This document shows, one piece after another, positions 36,623 to 61,365 of a stretch of 64,000 bases of DNA; the first letter of the stretch is position 1; every line of letters starts with the position of its first letter. Under the pieces are notes generated by a model that saw nothing but the letters and a program-made list of their open reading frames with translations, had not been told where the DNA came from and did not search any database. The position numbers and the translations under genes are program-made. The stretch is from positions 124,001 to 188,000 of the forward strand of contig OW569351.1 in NCBI GenBank assembly GCA_937625935.1. The letters are read 5' to 3'. This DNA is from Tetramitus jugosus. Taxonomy: Eukaryota; Heterolobosea; Eutetramitea; Acrasida; Vahlkampfiidae.

Positions 36623-39600
36623 ATGAGTTCTCATCCAAAGTCAACAGGTCCACCATCCACACGTGGTGGTAGAGGAAGTCACCACCATGCATCCTCTCGC
36701 AGATCACAACCAAATCAACAACAAGCAAATCAACAGCAACCACAGCAACAGCAACAGCAACACAGTTCAGAATCTTCATCAAACGTCAACACCTCCACTG
36801 GTAGTAGTAGTAGTAGTAGCAAGCCATCCAAAAGCTTTTCTTCCTTCTCCAAAAAGAAAAAAACGTTCATGAAAGCCACTCCAACAACAACAACAACAAC
36901 AACTCAAGGAACCATATCCAGTGAAGCACATAAAATGGTCCAAGATGAACAAATGTTCAAGGAAAGACTATTGCAATTGTTGACTGCAGTCTATGGTAAC
37001 AACAGTGTTGTTCCTCTGGAGTCATATGTCAATCGCATCTATTCCATGCTCAAACCCAGATCAGCCACTGTTGATGTTGCCATGTCTCGATTATTCCATT
37101 TGGAGAAGCAAGTTTTTTGGGTGAAGCCACCACTGGATCAAAAAGAAGCATTTTGGAACTTTGTTTCCTCATGTATCAAGGAAGCTGATGCTCGTGCTGC
37201 TAATGACAAGAACAACAATACTGGAAAGATCACTCTGAACAACAAGAACAGGAATACAGCAAACAATGCTCGTAAAAATGTTATTGTTGATGATGATGAT
37301 GATGATGATAGCGATGAATTGAGCTATGATGATCTTGAAAGTGATGCGAGCGATGGTGAGATTGTGTCGCTCTCATCATCCTCTCAGGTCAACATTCAAG
37401 ATCTGAATTCCATTATTCAAAATTTGAAAAAATTGGAGAATGAAATGTTGGAGAAGGATAAGCGCTTGGAACAAGTGATGACTCAATGTAGCATTGAAAG
37501 AGCTGAAATTGCAAGTAATTTGAAGAATTTGCAACAACAGTTGCAGCAGAGTGTGAATTCATTGTCTGTCATGAGCTCTGTTCCTAGTCCTTCACCTTTG
37601 AGCACCAAGAGCTCAACTGCTGCCAAGAAGGCACCTAGAAAGCAAGCTGAGGAGCAAGACAAGAAGGCAAAAGCTGTACCAGTGAAGGCTGAAGCTCAAA
37701 CAAGTGCTCCAACTACTGCTTCTTCTTCTGTGATGCTCGTTTCAAAGCGAGAGGAAGAGACACCAGAGGCGCGCGTCGTTGATCAGAAGAAGGTGGATGA
37801 AGTGATCAAGATGATTAATGTTTGCTTGCTTGAAGCAAAGTTTGCTGATGCAGCAAGATTGGCACTATCCATTCCAGTTGGCCAAATCAGCAATGAGACT
37901 TTGTTTAGCATTTTCAAAGCACTTGAGGCACCAGAGTTGCTCCCACCTAGTGCCACTGATAATATTGTACAGCTAATCTTCTCTGCTTTGAAACATAAGA
38001 GAGGAGCTCAAAAGGACGAAGTTATTGACAGAGTACGAGTTCTCGTCAATTACTTTGCCAGACGCATGACCATTCGTCGATTCGAATATATTGTATCTCT
38101 TTTGAACAGATTGTACGCTGAGTGTCCTCTGTCATTCAGACAATTGATGCCTGTTGTTGCTCAAAAGGCACCAAAGTTGCAAAAGTTGCGTCAATTGTTG
38201 AAGTTCCAGACATACATTGCTGCAATGTTGGTCGGAAATCCAAAGGATAGTCGCAATATTCTCACTCTCTACAAGCCGGCATTTGATCAGTTAGTGAAAG
38301 AGGAGCAAGCAATGACATTTGCACTCCATGAAACATCACTTGAAGCGATCAGACAATATGATCTTTCGCTTAATTTGCGTGTGGAGGAAGACCAACCTGA
38401 TAAGGTTGAGCAAGCAATTGCATCCTCTGTCGCAAGCAGCAAACCATTGCAAACTACCGTTCATCCAGTTGAAAGTCAAGAGAGAGTTCAAATCGAACAC
38501 ACTATCAGTGAGTTTTCAACAAGTGCTCTAACTGAGGAAGCAAACCAAATCTTTGAGAGATTGGCTCCAACAAGCGAGGAGACCCACTTGAAGGCCGAAC
38601 TTGTTGAAGAGTTGTCTAATCTTTGTAAATATGTGATCCCAACTAGTGAGGTGTATGCCTACGGTTCTTCAGCCAGTAATTTAGGTATCAAGGGCAGCGA
38701 TATTGATTTGTGTATCAAGTTGGACCAGGATATCTCTGCTGACAACCACTTGCAAATGAGTTTGTTGAATTTGATTTACAAGGCCATGAAGGCAGAGGAG
38801 TTTGAGCATCTGACTCCTGCTGAACAACCTGTCACTCGTTCTCGTGTTCCAATTTTGCAAGTGAAGGATAACAAGAGAGGATTTGAGTGTGATATTTGCA
38901 TTGGTAATTTGCTTGGTGTGACCAACACCAAGATGTTGAAGCTGTACTCTGAGATTGATCCAAGAGTCAGACCACTCATCTATGTTGTGAAGCATTGGGC
39001 AAAGTTGCGCCATATTAACGATCCTCCATCTGGTTCATTGAGTTCATACTCTTATGTGATCTTGGTTATCAACTATTTGCAATCAATTAAGAATCCAATT
39101 TTGCCATCATTGCAGGCACTATTGACTCATCCTGAGATTGAACCATCAGATATTAGCGAACCGCACTTTGTGAATGCTTATGATTGCAGATATGTATGCA
39201 ACCTTGAGAAAGTTCAGAAAATCTGGACCGAAAATAAGAAGAATACCTCAACTCTTGGTCAATTAGTTCTTGGATTCTTCACTTACTATAATACCTCATT
39301 TGATTTTAATCATAAGACAGCCAGTATCAGACTTGGTCAAGCAACTGACAAAAAGTCTAATATTGTAATCTCTATTGAAGATCCGTTCGAAAAGAGAGAT
39401 CTCGGAGGTGTTGTTTCTGATACTATGGTTCCTAAGATTGTTGAAGAGTTTAAGAGAGCTTACAACATATTGAACAATGGTGGTTCTATTGCTGATATTG
39501 TCGAAGAGAGAAAAACAGAAACTGACGAAGTTAATATCTACAACATCAAACAAGATTATGAAGATCACATGACTATTGGTGAAGCAGAAAGATTGATTGC

Positions 39601-42268
39601 CTCAGGTGAATTGAAGAAGGGTGTCTTACGTGTCAATAAGCTCAAATTTAAGGAAGCGTATGTCACTGTTCCAGGATTTAAGAAGGATGTTTTTGTTGAT
39701 GGTTTTAAGGCAAGAAACAGAGCCTTGCATGGTGATCTTGTGGCTGTTAAGATTAGTTACGAACGAAAGGTTAAGGTTGATTTTGGCAATCAAGCCGAGA
39801 AGGGGCACTCTAGCAATTTGATCGAGCCTGTCAGTGAAGAATACACAGTCACAGGCTCAGTTGTCTGCATTCTGTCAAAGAAGTCTCCTACATACTTCCC
39901 TTGCACAGTCATGAAGCAGGATGATGAACAAAACAAAGGATTTAGATGGTTGCTTCCAATGGACAAGGCTTATCCAAAGATTATGGTCCAATTCGAGGAG
40001 TTCAGACAAGCATTTAATGCAAGAGCGGTAGATCTCGAAGAGGTAATCATCATTGGTGAAATGAACTTGCCATGGGCCAAGGGCAGACATTATCCAAAGG
40101 GTAAGGTTGTTGGTGTCTTGGGCTTAAAGAGAGACTTGTGGAGTCAGAAGCGAGCCATTTTGTTGCAGCATATGCCATCTTTGTTCGAGAATGTTCTGTC
40201 TACCAGTAAGGAGAACCGGGACAAGGAAAGAAAGGCTGTTTCATATGTGGAGGGTGCTAATGTCTCAAACGAAACAAAGAAGGCTGAAAACTTGTTGAAG
40301 AAGAGAGAGTCATGGGACATCAATAATATCGAAATTGATATTGAGAAGGAAATTGCCGATGGCTATGTCGATTGGAGAAAGAGAAGAGTGTTCACTATTG
40401 ATCCTCCTTCCTCCAGAGATTTGGATGACGCTCTTTCAATTGATCATGCTGAAGGGGAGTGGTATAATGTTACAGTGTACGTTGCTGATGTGACAAGATT
40501 TGTCAAGGAAGGCGATGAAACTGATTTGGAAGCACGAAAGAGAGCTACTTCTGTCTATTTGTTAGATACCGTAGATCACATGCTTGATCCATCTCTCAGT
40601 CAAAACTTGTGCAGTATTTTGCCAGGAGTAACTCGTTTCTCTGTGGCTGTTGAGTTCTGGATGAACACTAAGGGAGAAATTCGTTATGATACCGTTAATT
40701 TCACACGATGCATCATTCGTTCTTGCTGCCGTATGGATTATGATTCTGTTCAAGAAGTTCTTATGGGCAGACAAATTCCTGAGGATAAGAGAAAGATGTT
40801 TGACGGTTTTGAATGGAAAGATATTGAACAAGACTTGAAGATTTTGAATGAAATGACTCAATCTCTCAGAAAGGCTAGATATGAGAATGGTTCCGTTGAG
40901 TTGTCCAACCAAGAACTTCAATTTGAACTCGATGAAGATGGCTATCCTGTGAAGGTGACCAAGGCCGTTCACAACGAATCTCATCAGTTGATTGAAGAGT
41001 ATGCTCTACTTGCTAACAAACTTGCAGCCACTGTACTCAACGATTACTACCAGGACAACTGTTTGTTAAGACAGCACTCTCCACCATCAGCTGAGGGCTG
41101 GTCAGAGACTGTTACTCAAATGGCTGATGCAATTTCAAATATTCATAGAATTGTACATGTCGATGAGCCATCCAAGGGCTCAGTCGTCATTGAAATTGCT
41201 GCAATGTTGAAGGCTAACGCAGCTCCTCAAGAAGTCATGAATAAGCTTCAGAGCTACACTGAAAAGTATCCATATATGCAACAAGCAGTTCGTCATGCAT
41301 TACTCCGTGAAATGCAATTGGCCAAATACTGTAGAAAGGGTGATTGTGATGAGACATTTGGATCTCATCATTTTGCCCTAAACATGGAACTTTACACTCA
41401 CTTCACATCTCCAATCAGAAGATATGCTGATATCATTGTCCATAGACAACTTTTACAAATGATTGAGGAGAAGAAGAGAGGATCAACTGGAATTCGTCCT
41501 GTACCTTCCATTTATGATGGTGAGTTGACCAAGATTGTTGAAAACATTAACGAGCAAGCTTATCAAGCAAAGAGCGCCGAGGATATTTCCCAGAGACAAT
41601 ACCTCGCCTACTATTTGATGCCTATTGTCTCCGAGAGAGTCGAGCGTGTTGAGGCACTTGTGATGTCGCTCGGAAAGAGAGCATTCACCGTCTATGTTCC
41701 AAAGTATTGCATTGAAATTAAGTGTAATATTATGAAACAGTTTGTCCCTGCGCCTCAATCGATCACCGAGTCAGAGCACAATGCAGATGGAACCTCAAGA
41801 CAAATTGAAGAAAATGAATCTGACAAGGAAGGCCTAGTCATTGATGCACTGACCATCACATGGTCCAACCAGAACTCAATTTCTGAGAGTGCTTCTGCCG
41901 AAGAGAGAATGAGACATTTGGCTCTGAATCGTAGTCTCGAGTTGAGACCATTGAAGAGAATTCTTGTTGATCTTGACATCAACTATGACGCTGTCCCATT
42001 GGATGTCTTTGCATACAATGTCTGGGAATTCGAGGAACAGATTGAAGCTCACAGCGGTCGTACTTTGGCTTCCAGAAACCGTTTGGCTGTCTCCAGTGAT
42101 ACCGATATTCTCAACACACCTCAAATCAGTGAAAGCTATATCCGTGACCAAAAGGAGATTCAGCAACGAGAGAGAAGAGACAGAAGAGAGAACCAAAGGA
42201 AGAAGCAATTCGAAAAGGGCAAGAAGGGCGGCTTCTTCAATCGCAAAGCCAACAACAATCAAAAGTAA
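36623..42268 (+). CDS. Terminal nucleotidyltransferase (Cid1/TUT type) fused to DIS3L2-type 3'-5' exoribonuclease
   Basis: 1881 residues, one exon. N-terminus low complexity (Gln, Ser, poly-Asp near 37290), then a coiled coil and a helical region (about 390-560). Nucleotidyltransferase: YAYGSSASNLGIKGSDIDLC with Gly681-Ser682, Asp693 and Asp695, third Asp757 in FECDICIGN, and a PAP-associated region ending LGFFTYYNTSFDFN. From about 1000: cold-shock-like VFVDGFKARNRALHGDLVAV, then the RNB domain with TIDPPSSRDLDDALSI (Asp1260, 1266, 1268, 1269) and YTHFTSPIRRYADIIVHRQL. There is no PIN domain, as in DIS3L2. In animals separate TUTs add U-tails and DIS3L2 degrades U-tailed RNA; here both activities share one chain. 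All catalytic acids are present. Whether it adds U or A cannot be told. Confidence 0.93.
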   Translation: MSSHPKSTGPPSTRGGRGSHHHASSRRSQPNQQQANQQQPQQQQQQHSSESSSNVNTSTGSSSSSSKPSKSFSSFSKKKKTFMKATPTTTTTTTQGTISSEAHKMVQDEQMFKERLLQLLTAVYGNNSVVPLESYVNRIYSMLKPRSATVDVAMSRLFHLEKQVFWVKPPLDQKEAFWNFVSSCIKEADARAANDKNNNTGKITLNNKNRNTANNARKNVIVDDDDDDDSDELSYDDLESDASDGEIVSLSSSSQVNIQDLNSIIQNLKKLENEMLEKDKRLEQVMTQCSIERAEIASNLKNLQQQLQQSVNSLSVMSSVPSPSPLSTKSSTAAKKAPRKQAEEQDKKAKAVPVKAEAQTSAPTTASSSVMLVSKREEETPEARVVDQKKVDEVIKMINVCLLEAKFADAARLALSIPVGQISNETLFSIFKALEAPELLPPSATDNIVQLIFSALKHKRGAQKDEVIDRVRVLVNYFARRMTIRRFEYIVSLLNRLYAECPLSFRQLMPVVAQKAPKLQKLRQLLKFQTYIAAMLVGNPKDSRNILTLYKPAFDQLVKEEQAMTFALHETSLEAIRQYDLSLNLRVEEDQPDKVEQAIASSVASSKPLQTTVHPVESQERVQIEHTISEFSTSALTEEANQIFERLAPTSEETHLKAELVEELSNLCKYVIPTSEVYAYGSSASNLGIKGSDIDLCIKLDQDISADNHLQMSLLNLIYKAMKAEEFEHLTPAEQPVTRSRVPILQVKDNKRGFECDICIGNLLGVTNTKMLKLYSEIDPRVRPLIYVVKHWAKLRHINDPPSGSLSSYSYVILVINYLQSIKNPILPSLQALLTHPEIEPSDISEPHFVNAYDCRYVCNLEKVQKIWTENKKNTSTLGQLVLGFFTYYNTSFDFNHKTASIRLGQATDKKSNIVISIEDPFEKRDLGGVVSDTMVPKIVEEFKRAYNILNNGGSIADIVEERKTETDEVNIYNIKQDYEDHMTIGEAERLIASGELKKGVLRVNKLKFKEAYVTVPGFKKDVFVDGFKARNRALHGDLVAVKISYERKVKVDFGNQAEKGHSSNLIEPVSEEYTVTGSVVCILSKKSPTYFPCTVMKQDDEQNKGFRWLLPMDKAYPKIMVQFEEFRQAFNARAVDLEEVIIIGEMNLPWAKGRHYPKGKVVGVLGLKRDLWSQKRAILLQHMPSLFENVLSTSKENRDKERKAVSYVEGANVSNETKKAENLLKKRESWDINNIEIDIEKEIADGYVDWRKRRVFTIDPPSSRDLDDALSIDHAEGEWYNVTVYVADVTRFVKEGDETDLEARKRATSVYLLDTVDHMLDPSLSQNLCSILPGVTRFSVAVEFWMNTKGEIRYDTVNFTRCIIRSCCRMDYDSVQEVLMGRQIPEDKRKMFDGFEWKDIEQDLKILNEMTQSLRKARYENGSVELSNQELQFELDEDGYPVKVTKAVHNESHQLIEEYALLANKLAATVLNDYYQDNCLLRQHSPPSAEGWSETVTQMADAISNIHRIVHVDEPSKGSVVIEIAAMLKANAAPQEVMNKLQSYTEKYPYMQQAVRHALLREMQLAKYCRKGDCDETFGSHHFALNMELYTHFTSPIRRYADIIVHRQLLQMIEEKKRGSTGIRPVPSIYDGELTKIVENINEQAYQAKSAEDISQRQYLAYYLMPIVSERVERVEALVMSLGKRAFTVYVPKYCIEIKCNIMKQFVPAPQSITESEHNADGTSRQIEENESDKEGLVIDALTITWSNQNSISESASAEERMRHLALNRSLELRPLKRILVDLDINYDAVPLDVFAYNVWEFEEQIEAHSGRTLASRNRLAVSSDTDILNTPQISESYIRDQKEIQQRERRDRRENQRKKQFEKGKKGGFFNRKANNNQK

Positions 42269-42556
42269 ATTCTGAGGAAGTACTGGCAGGCATCTTTGTT
42301 TCTAACAACGCGATGTCATGAAACCAAATAAACAAATCTGATAATAATGAGACATAAAAGACCAAGTGTCGCTTCTGAAACAAAAAGCTTCTCCTCGGAT
42401 TCGTCTTGTCACCTGTCCTCACACGCCAAAACTCGTAGCAGTTCCCAGTGTTCCACAACCCCAGAGCAAAAAAAAACGATTTTCATGCTGAACAACGACA
42501 ACAAAACAGAAAAAAGCGCAAAAATCAAACCAATCAGACAGAAAAAAAAAGAAACA

Positions 42557-43135
42557 ATGACCACTCCTCTTAGCAACGAAAGCTTGGAAGATCTCAGAAA
42601 AACATTCAACTTGTTCGACGTGGACAATGACGGCAAGATCACTGCCGATGAATTGGAAAAAGTCATGGAAAAGTTTACTGGTGTGAAGCCATCGAGAGTC
42701 GATTTGGAAGATATGTTGAGAGAGGCTGACTATGATTCGAATGGAACGATCGAGTTCAATGAATTTATTAAACTCATGTCATCCAAGCACTTTGCTCTAG
42801 AGTCTGATGAGTCTGATTTGAGAGAAGCTTTTAAAATGTGTGTGTTTTATCTTGGTTGTTTGATTTGTTTGTTTGATTTGTTTGATTTGATTTATTTGTT
42901 TTAATTGATTTGTTTTAATTGTGATAAAATTGTTGTCAACTTACACTGTGAATGAAAAATTAGTTTTGATCGTGATGGTAATGGACAGATTGATCACAAT
43001 GAACTCAAGTCTGTCATGGCCAACCTGGGTGAAACATTGACCGATGATCAAATTCAACAAATGATGAAAGAAGCCGATATCAATAACGATGGTTTCATAA
43101 ATTTTGAGGAATTTTCGCGAATGATGTCAAAGTAA
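42557..43135 (+). CDS. Calmodulin-like four-EF-hand protein (two exons)
   Basis: join(42557..42837, 42964..43135), 150 residues, calmodulin size. The 126-nt intron starts GTGTGT and ends AATTAG; joining gives KIFDRDGNG. EF loops: FDVDNDGKITADEL, ADYDSNGTIEFNEF, FDRDGNGQIDHNEL and ADINNDGFINFEEF, each with Asp/Asn ligands and a closing Glu (third: E of NEL). The sequence differs from canonical calmodulin at many sites (for example GKITADELEKVMEKFTG), so it is a calmodulin- or troponin C-like relative. In-frame ATGs at 42347 and 42485 would add a Ser/Lys-rich N-terminal extension; I prefer 42557. Confidence 0.88.
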
Positions 43136-61294: not shown

Positions 61295-61365
61295 TGCATC
61301 TGCCGGGATTCGAACCCGGGTCGCAGCGATGGCAACGCTGCATGATACCCCTACACTACAGATGC
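61295..61365 (-). tRNA. tRNA-Gly (anticodon GCC)
   Basis: 71 bases on the minus strand with no intron. Acceptor GCATCTG pairs with CAGATGC, discriminator A. The D arm has TAGTGTAGGGGTATCA. The anticodon arm is CAGCG-TTGCCAT-CGCTG with anticodon GCC. The T arm is CCGGGTTCGAATCCCGG. T5 (61290-61294 on the complement) terminates Pol III. Confidence 0.97.

Follow-up and report, generated by a model that had tools for sequence, protein, structure and literature searches.

A single open reading frame of Tetramitus jugosus joins a Cid1/TUT-type nucleotidyltransferase to a DIS3L2-type exonuclease

One uninterrupted reading frame in the genome of Tetramitus jugosus encodes a Cid1/TUT-type terminal nucleotidyltransferase followed by a DIS3L2-type exonuclease. 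The frame lies at positions 36623–42268 on the plus strand of the window, the whole stretch of 64,000 nucleotides that was analyzed, and its 1881 codons are free of stops and translate into a protein of 1881 amino acids (gene A, protein P0001). Elsewhere, RNA-tailing and RNA-degrading enzymes of these types are known to work as separate partner proteins. The protein is best understood, with a probability of about 60%, as a bifunctional enzyme that adds a tail serving as toehold to an RNA, which its tethered RNB half would then degrade. A frame of about 5.6 kb without interruption had already been claimed in a sequence-only reading of the same DNA and was recovered here. All features of gene A given below are on the plus strand of the window.

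The tailing half comprises a nucleotidyltransferase core (residues 634–958; 38522–39496) that was recognized by two Pfam models and by the solved structures of TUT4, TUT7, URT1, GLD2, and Cid1, with TUT4 as best match in the PDB (203 bits). The MTPAP-like palm domain PF22600 matched residues 636–777 (3.5e-30) and the PAP_assoc domain PF03828 residues 877–923 (1.5e-6), both above the curated cut-offs. A check of individual residues located the Gly681-Ser682 signature (38663–38668), the catalytic Asp693-x-Asp695 pair (38699–38707), and the third catalytic Asp757 (38891–38893). G681, S682, D693, D695, and D757 align with URT1, TUT4, and TUT7; the column of the third Asp holds Ala in the two URT1 chains shown in the alignment. 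On sequence grounds, the tailing half of A belongs with the terminal nucleotidyltransferases of the Cid1/TUT/URT1 type.

The nuclease half starts with a DIS3L2-type cold-shock domain 1 (residues 976–1053; 39548–39781), which aligns with human DIS3L2 from residue 47 of the latter at 43.5 bits. The region of cold-shock domain 2 (residues 1078–1183; 39854–40171) was matched by the Pfam model OB_Dis3 at residues 1109–1183 (1.8e-9, 38 bits), and its alignment with human DIS3L2 is weak (2.8 bits). The RNB exonuclease domain (PF00773, 1.3e-84) spans residues 1250–1615 (40370–41467) and contains the catalytic DxxxxxDxDD motif, as defined in the available text of PMC8097288, with Asp1260, Asp1266, Asp1268, and Asp1269 (40400–40429), as well as the RNB end motif HFTSPIRRY at residues 1593–1601 (41399–41425). 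A possible S1-like/Dis3l2_C_term region at residues 1677–1764 (41651–41914) scored below the cut-off (E 0.092; 13.6 versus 31.6 bits). No PIN model was among the 13 Pfam families listed for A at E ≤ 1; PIN_4 was detected in another protein of the genome (P0006). In comparisons with the PDB, the rear half of A scored 224 bits with DIS3L2, 185 with DIS3L1, and 176 with RRP44, and within its own genome 712 with a free DIS3L2, 536 with a DIS3L1-like protein, and 524 with DIS3. These scores, the two cold-shock domains, and the missing PIN domain bear out the earlier classification of this half as DIS3L2-type. In RNB trees of 10 and 9 rows A formed a long branch that was not firmly placed, and no branch was starred. 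The sequence-only reading had further described a complete nucleotidyltransferase triad and a complete set of RNB Asp residues within one frame, combined with cold-shock and RNB domains, the RNB end motif, and no PIN domain. Pfam and the residue check agree with this description throughout, and all nine residue numbers given in it (G681, S682, D693, D695, D757, D1260, D1266, D1268, and D1269) are correct.

The part of A that precedes the tailing core begins with a low-complexity N-terminus rich in Ser, Gln, Thr, and Lys (residues 1–100; 36623–36922). Pfam yielded no match above cut-off in residues 1–624, and no non-self match to A before residue 634 was found in its own genome. The region of residues 385–625 (37775–38497) appears mostly helical in a model of very low confidence (mean pLDDT 37). 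Single-sequence AlphaFold models of residues 380–960 and 625–1800 were discarded as too poor (mean pLDDT 37 and 32, respectively). Downstream of gene A, 78 bases separate its end from an ORF at 42347–42904 (plus strand) that by eye encodes an EF-hand protein similar to centrin or calmodulin; the tail of this ORF resembles non-coding sequence and was probably read into an intron. The only tRNA gene found in the window is a tRNA-Gly (GCC) at 61295–61365 on the minus strand.

Whether the two halves really form a single gene depends on the junction between them. Homology to solved TUT/PAP structures ends in A at residue 943 (TUT4), 952 (URT1), or 957 (GLD2), and that to human DIS3L2 starts with residue 976, which leaves a stop-free join of 18–32 residues, with residues 959–975 (39497–39547) as linker between the TUT and DIS3L2 homologies. 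A splice or transcript break, or an assembly join near 39.4 kb, had been named beforehand as the findings that would speak against a fusion. Both appear unlikely, given a second locus with the same architecture and given that homology and coding signal run through the junction. Introns do occur in this genome, and a related gene (paralogue C, see below) is predicted from its sequence to contain a 61-nt GTAAGT...CAG intron. In principle, two neighboring genes might have been fused through faulty assembly, an intron that was overlooked, or the loss of a stop. Such an artefact nevertheless seems very unlikely, because an unlinked paralogue of the same assembly (paralogue B) has the same domain order in one frame and because paralogue C shares the tailing half. 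Moreover, in all four junction windows (residues 901–1050) a codon-usage score preferred the frame of A to both alternatives on its strand, and the signal is unbroken across the junction; the training set of this score consisted of eight further genes from the genome, including paralogue B. A scan of the ORF for intron-donor motifs found five donor-like sites and none in the linker; the sole site with frame-keeping acceptors, GTATGT at 39658, falls within the conserved cold-shock domain 1, which also argues against an overlooked intron.

Paralogue B is located on another contig (C36, 193885–198693, minus strand), is unlinked to A, and encodes 1602 amino acids in one frame with the same order of tailing and nuclease parts. 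In Smith–Waterman comparisons with 200 shuffles, the tailing halves of A and B gave a z of 86 and the nuclease halves a z of 28, the latter with an hhalign probability of 99.1%. When the C-terminal half of B was scanned alone, RNB (42 bits) and OB_Dis3 (33 bits) both exceeded the cut-off, although hmmscan of the whole length showed no RNB at E ≤ 0.1; the 43.3 bits obtained for B in the genome-wide RNB search are consistent with the value for the C-terminal half alone. The origin of this half from DIS3L2 rests on its relationship to A, because the rear half of B scored highest against A (194), followed by the DIS3L1-like protein (172) and DIS3 (145), and lowest against the free DIS3L2 (70). In the catalytic region of RNB, A reads FTIDPPSSRDLDDALSI and B FSICSSDSSTIAFSA; the DxxxxxDxDD motif, which according to the accessible text of PMC8097288 is conserved in all known active members, is gone in B, and HFTSPIRRY of A is replaced by EFTNPSLSF. 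As judged from its motifs, B thus combines a putative tailing enzyme with a dead nuclease, which may now only bind RNA.

Paralogue C (contig C38) has 1004 amino acids after in silico splicing of its single predicted intron, and its tailing half resembles that of A with a z of 61. The tailing triad is retained in both B and C. An assignment of the rear half of C to RNB could not be demonstrated, with no Pfam match and an hhalign probability of 0.9%. For this half, z was highest with A (4.7), followed by B (2.0), the free DIS3L2 (1.4), and DIS3 (−1.1), and A alone gave a score above all 200 shuffles (61 versus 53). By eye, an RRM-like fold can be seen in the N-terminal part of B (approximately residues 205–290 of P0002, L029) and at the N-terminus of C; Pfam gave nothing above cut-off in these two N-termini, and B versus C there had a z of 2.6. 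Homology of the N-terminal region of A to those of B and C was rejected (z −0.8 and −0.1, respectively). A tree of eight tailing domains, including the Trf4-like protein of the genome, united A, B, and C in one group (support 98/99), and a tree of seven rows with longer ends recovered the same split (99/98); these trees were midpoint-rooted for drawing only, and C is a long branch in them. A constraint joining A with the free TUT-type protein of the genome was rejected (p-AU 0.016). The string DCRY[VI] is common to A, B, and C and absent from the other four rows of the alignment. The grouping of the three tailing domains points to one fusion and later duplications, which would be the simplest reading.

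A search of the genome (26.35 Mb in 56 contigs) revealed seven places with RNB matches and at least 10 with MTPAP-like matches at E ≤ 0.001, at least six of which exceeded the curated cut-off. The latter fall into five genes, two places sharing one gene, and three of these five genes constitute the fusion family. A free DIS3L2 of 835 amino acids is encoded on contig C9 (367 bits to DIS3L2, all four Asp kept), and a free TUT-type protein of 847 amino acids on contig C8 (L030:2206–4746, minus strand), approximately 200 kb from A. The palm domain of this free TUT-type protein carries a long low-complexity insert. Since both free enzymes persist, the fusion is an addition to them and not a replacement. 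Two other RNB genes resemble organellar relatives of RNase II, namely P0007, whose RNase II domain is of the winged-helix type, and P0008. A protein of 863 amino acids (contig C42, L036:1391–3979, plus strand) has a partial RNB match (positions 4–145 of 326) preceded by a Ser/Thr-rich N-terminus, whose start, on visual inspection, resembles an organelle-targeting sequence; this protein may be one more RNase II relative that has decayed or acts in an organelle. On contig C23 (L033:2182–6027, minus strand), a protein of 1282 amino acids scored 715 bits to human DIS3L1 versus 541 to RRP44. It is worth noting that this DIS3L1-like protein occurs here although DIS3L1 was confined to metazoa in an analysis of opisthokonts and amoebozoans and in PANTHER, according to the available part of PMC8097288. 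The S-adenosylhomocysteine hydrolase of this genome reached 810 bits with the PDB entry 5v96 (Naegleria fowleri) and 806 bits with 6uk3.

Oligo-U tailing, which the sequence-only reading had cited for animal TUT4/TUT7, is not supported for A, as the alignments place no UTP-selecting His in it. At the position of Cid1 His336, A (EDPFE-KRDLGG) has no His when compared with URT1 (EDPFETSHDLGR) and TUT4/7 (EDPFDLNHNLGA), where the context of this residue is EDPFETSHDLG and EDPFDLNHNLG, respectively. Arg925 of A (39395–39397) falls into the His column of URT1, TUT4, and TUT7 through a one-residue gap. The same column contains Arg871 of B without a gap and Phe in the free TUT-type protein, and Arg539 of C is one column off. 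As far as the available text of PMC7498324 goes, His336 selects UTP in Cid1, which becomes a poly(A) polymerase when Ala or Asn takes the place of this His; CutA carries Arg557 at this position and prefers C, and replacement of this Arg by His raises U incorporation, yet does not make CutA a U-adder. CutA had no row in our alignment, and the position of its Arg557 was taken from that paper. U-tailing is thus unproven, since the UTP-selecting His is replaced and an Arg is found there or beside it in A, B, and C, as in CutA. From the residues at this position, a tail that contains C or A, or a mixed tail, would be at least as likely as oligo-U, and B may add a base other than U.

In the preferred reading, the nucleotidyltransferase of A would extend RNA 3′ ends that are exposed or structured by a few untemplated nucleotides, this short tail would act as a single-stranded toehold caught by the covalently attached RNB domain, and the attached DIS3L2-type half would then degrade the captured RNA, so that a two-step pathway of tailing and degradation would reside in one chain. 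We infer this activity of A, the order of its steps, and the hand-over of the tail in cis to the nuclease channel. The toehold model gains support from published systems because tailing enzymes and RNB exonucleases, in the parts of those reports that were available, cooperate or associate with each other. The free DIS3L2 and the free TUT-type protein argue against the fusion as sole route of tail-dependent decay. Tailing may also have a role of its own, because B has lost the nuclease motif yet keeps the tailing residues and because the rear half of C is not demonstrably RNB. A bolder proposal is a single-chain family of tail-and-degrade enzymes in which a CutA-like pocket makes a C- or A-containing tail, the nuclease channel is adapted to it, and the duplicate has turned into a tailing enzyme that an inactive DIS3L2-type domain guides; this version is tentative and, taken as a whole, rather doubtful.

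The two activities might also follow each other in the reverse order, with the RNB half trimming 3′ ends back to a fixed position and the nucleotidyltransferase tailing them afterwards, as when an exonuclease and a tailing enzyme together mature RNA ends. Precedent exists in the trypanosome MPsome, which, according to the accessible text of PMC6329795, contains DSS1 and RET1 and trims precursors, with RET1 tailing the ends of rRNA and gRNA, and the retention of the tailing residues in B without the nuclease motif implies that tailing can serve a purpose of its own. However, the nuclease half of A scores closest to DIS3L2, a decay enzyme, and the genome has with P0007 and P0008 two proteins that are more organellar RNase II-like than A, which makes trimming before tailing an unlikely main function. 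Less likely still is that the two halves act on different RNAs without any hand-over, the fusion securing only their co-location or equal dose. This would agree with the coexistence of free versions of both enzymes and with a possible mismatch between the added base and the U that known DIS3L2 enzymes prefer, as the UTP-selecting His is absent, but the linker is short (18–32 residues) and the same pair of activities forms a working partnership in other lineages, as far as the available reports describe it.

A literature search of titles and the starts of abstracts, with subscription papers mostly outside its range, revealed no fusion of a tailing enzyme and a nuclease among the matches listed, a result that is provisional. 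When viral contigs were scanned with A, none of six pattern matches was confirmed as a relative by tblastn, and the same was true for the 12 pattern matches in contigs of prokaryote genomes. A tblastn search of phages with A returned 41 records, none of which spanned 80% of the query; the best five of the 41 match only residues 986–1693, and the one annotated row among them is a ribonuclease R. A natural one-chain enzyme for tailing and decay would make hand-over in cis measurable on one purified protein, in which point mutations can inactivate each step separately, and paralogue B with its dead nuclease offers a built-in comparison for A. As A lacks the UTP-selecting His, it could also be used to test directly whether oligo-U is required for decay of the DIS3L2 type or whether a single-stranded toehold suffices.

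Several known systems pair the same activities. In mammals, TUT4 tailing stimulates DIS3L2 in vitro, as stated in the available text of PMC5069555, and the best PDB matches of A are just these two proteins, TUT4 and DIS3L2. The mammalian enzymes differ in being separate proteins, in that TUT4 and TUT7 keep the UTP-selecting His, and in that both carry a second, N-terminal copy of the transferase, whereas A has one palm match. The Drosophila TRUMP complex for tail-triggered decay consists of Tailor and Dis3L2 (PMC6344859, available part) and, as described there, resembles A in physically joining a Cid1/TUT-type tailing enzyme with a DIS3L2 exonuclease. TRUMP is made of two proteins from separate genes, whereas here both parts share one open frame in A and in B, and Tailor, according to the accessible portion of PMC7498324, has the UTP-selecting His522 that A lacks. 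In the trypanosome mitochondrial processome (MPsome), RET1 and DSS1 are subunits of one complex, and a tailing enzyme and a 3′–5′ exonuclease likewise act together; as far as PMC6329795 was available, this complex is multi-protein and organellar, in contrast to the single chain of A with its DIS3L2-type nuclease. Aspergillus CutA, a PDB match of the tailing domain of A (111.8 bits), is also a Cid1-type transferase in which Arg replaces Cid1 His336, but the available text of PMC7498324 mentions no nuclease domain for CutA, and the matching Arg of A follows a one-residue deletion, so that the equivalence of the two residues is not proven. Paralogue B finds its closest parallel in the fungal Ssd1 pseudonucleases, whose RNB domain of the Dis3L2 family has likewise lost the active-site motif. 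The accessible part of PMC8097288 mentions no tailing domain for these proteins, whereas B keeps the tailing triad in the same chain. The same part suggests that, after loss of a nuclease targeted to U, there may be pressure against retaining a TUTase that is still active, a proposal on which B has a bearing.
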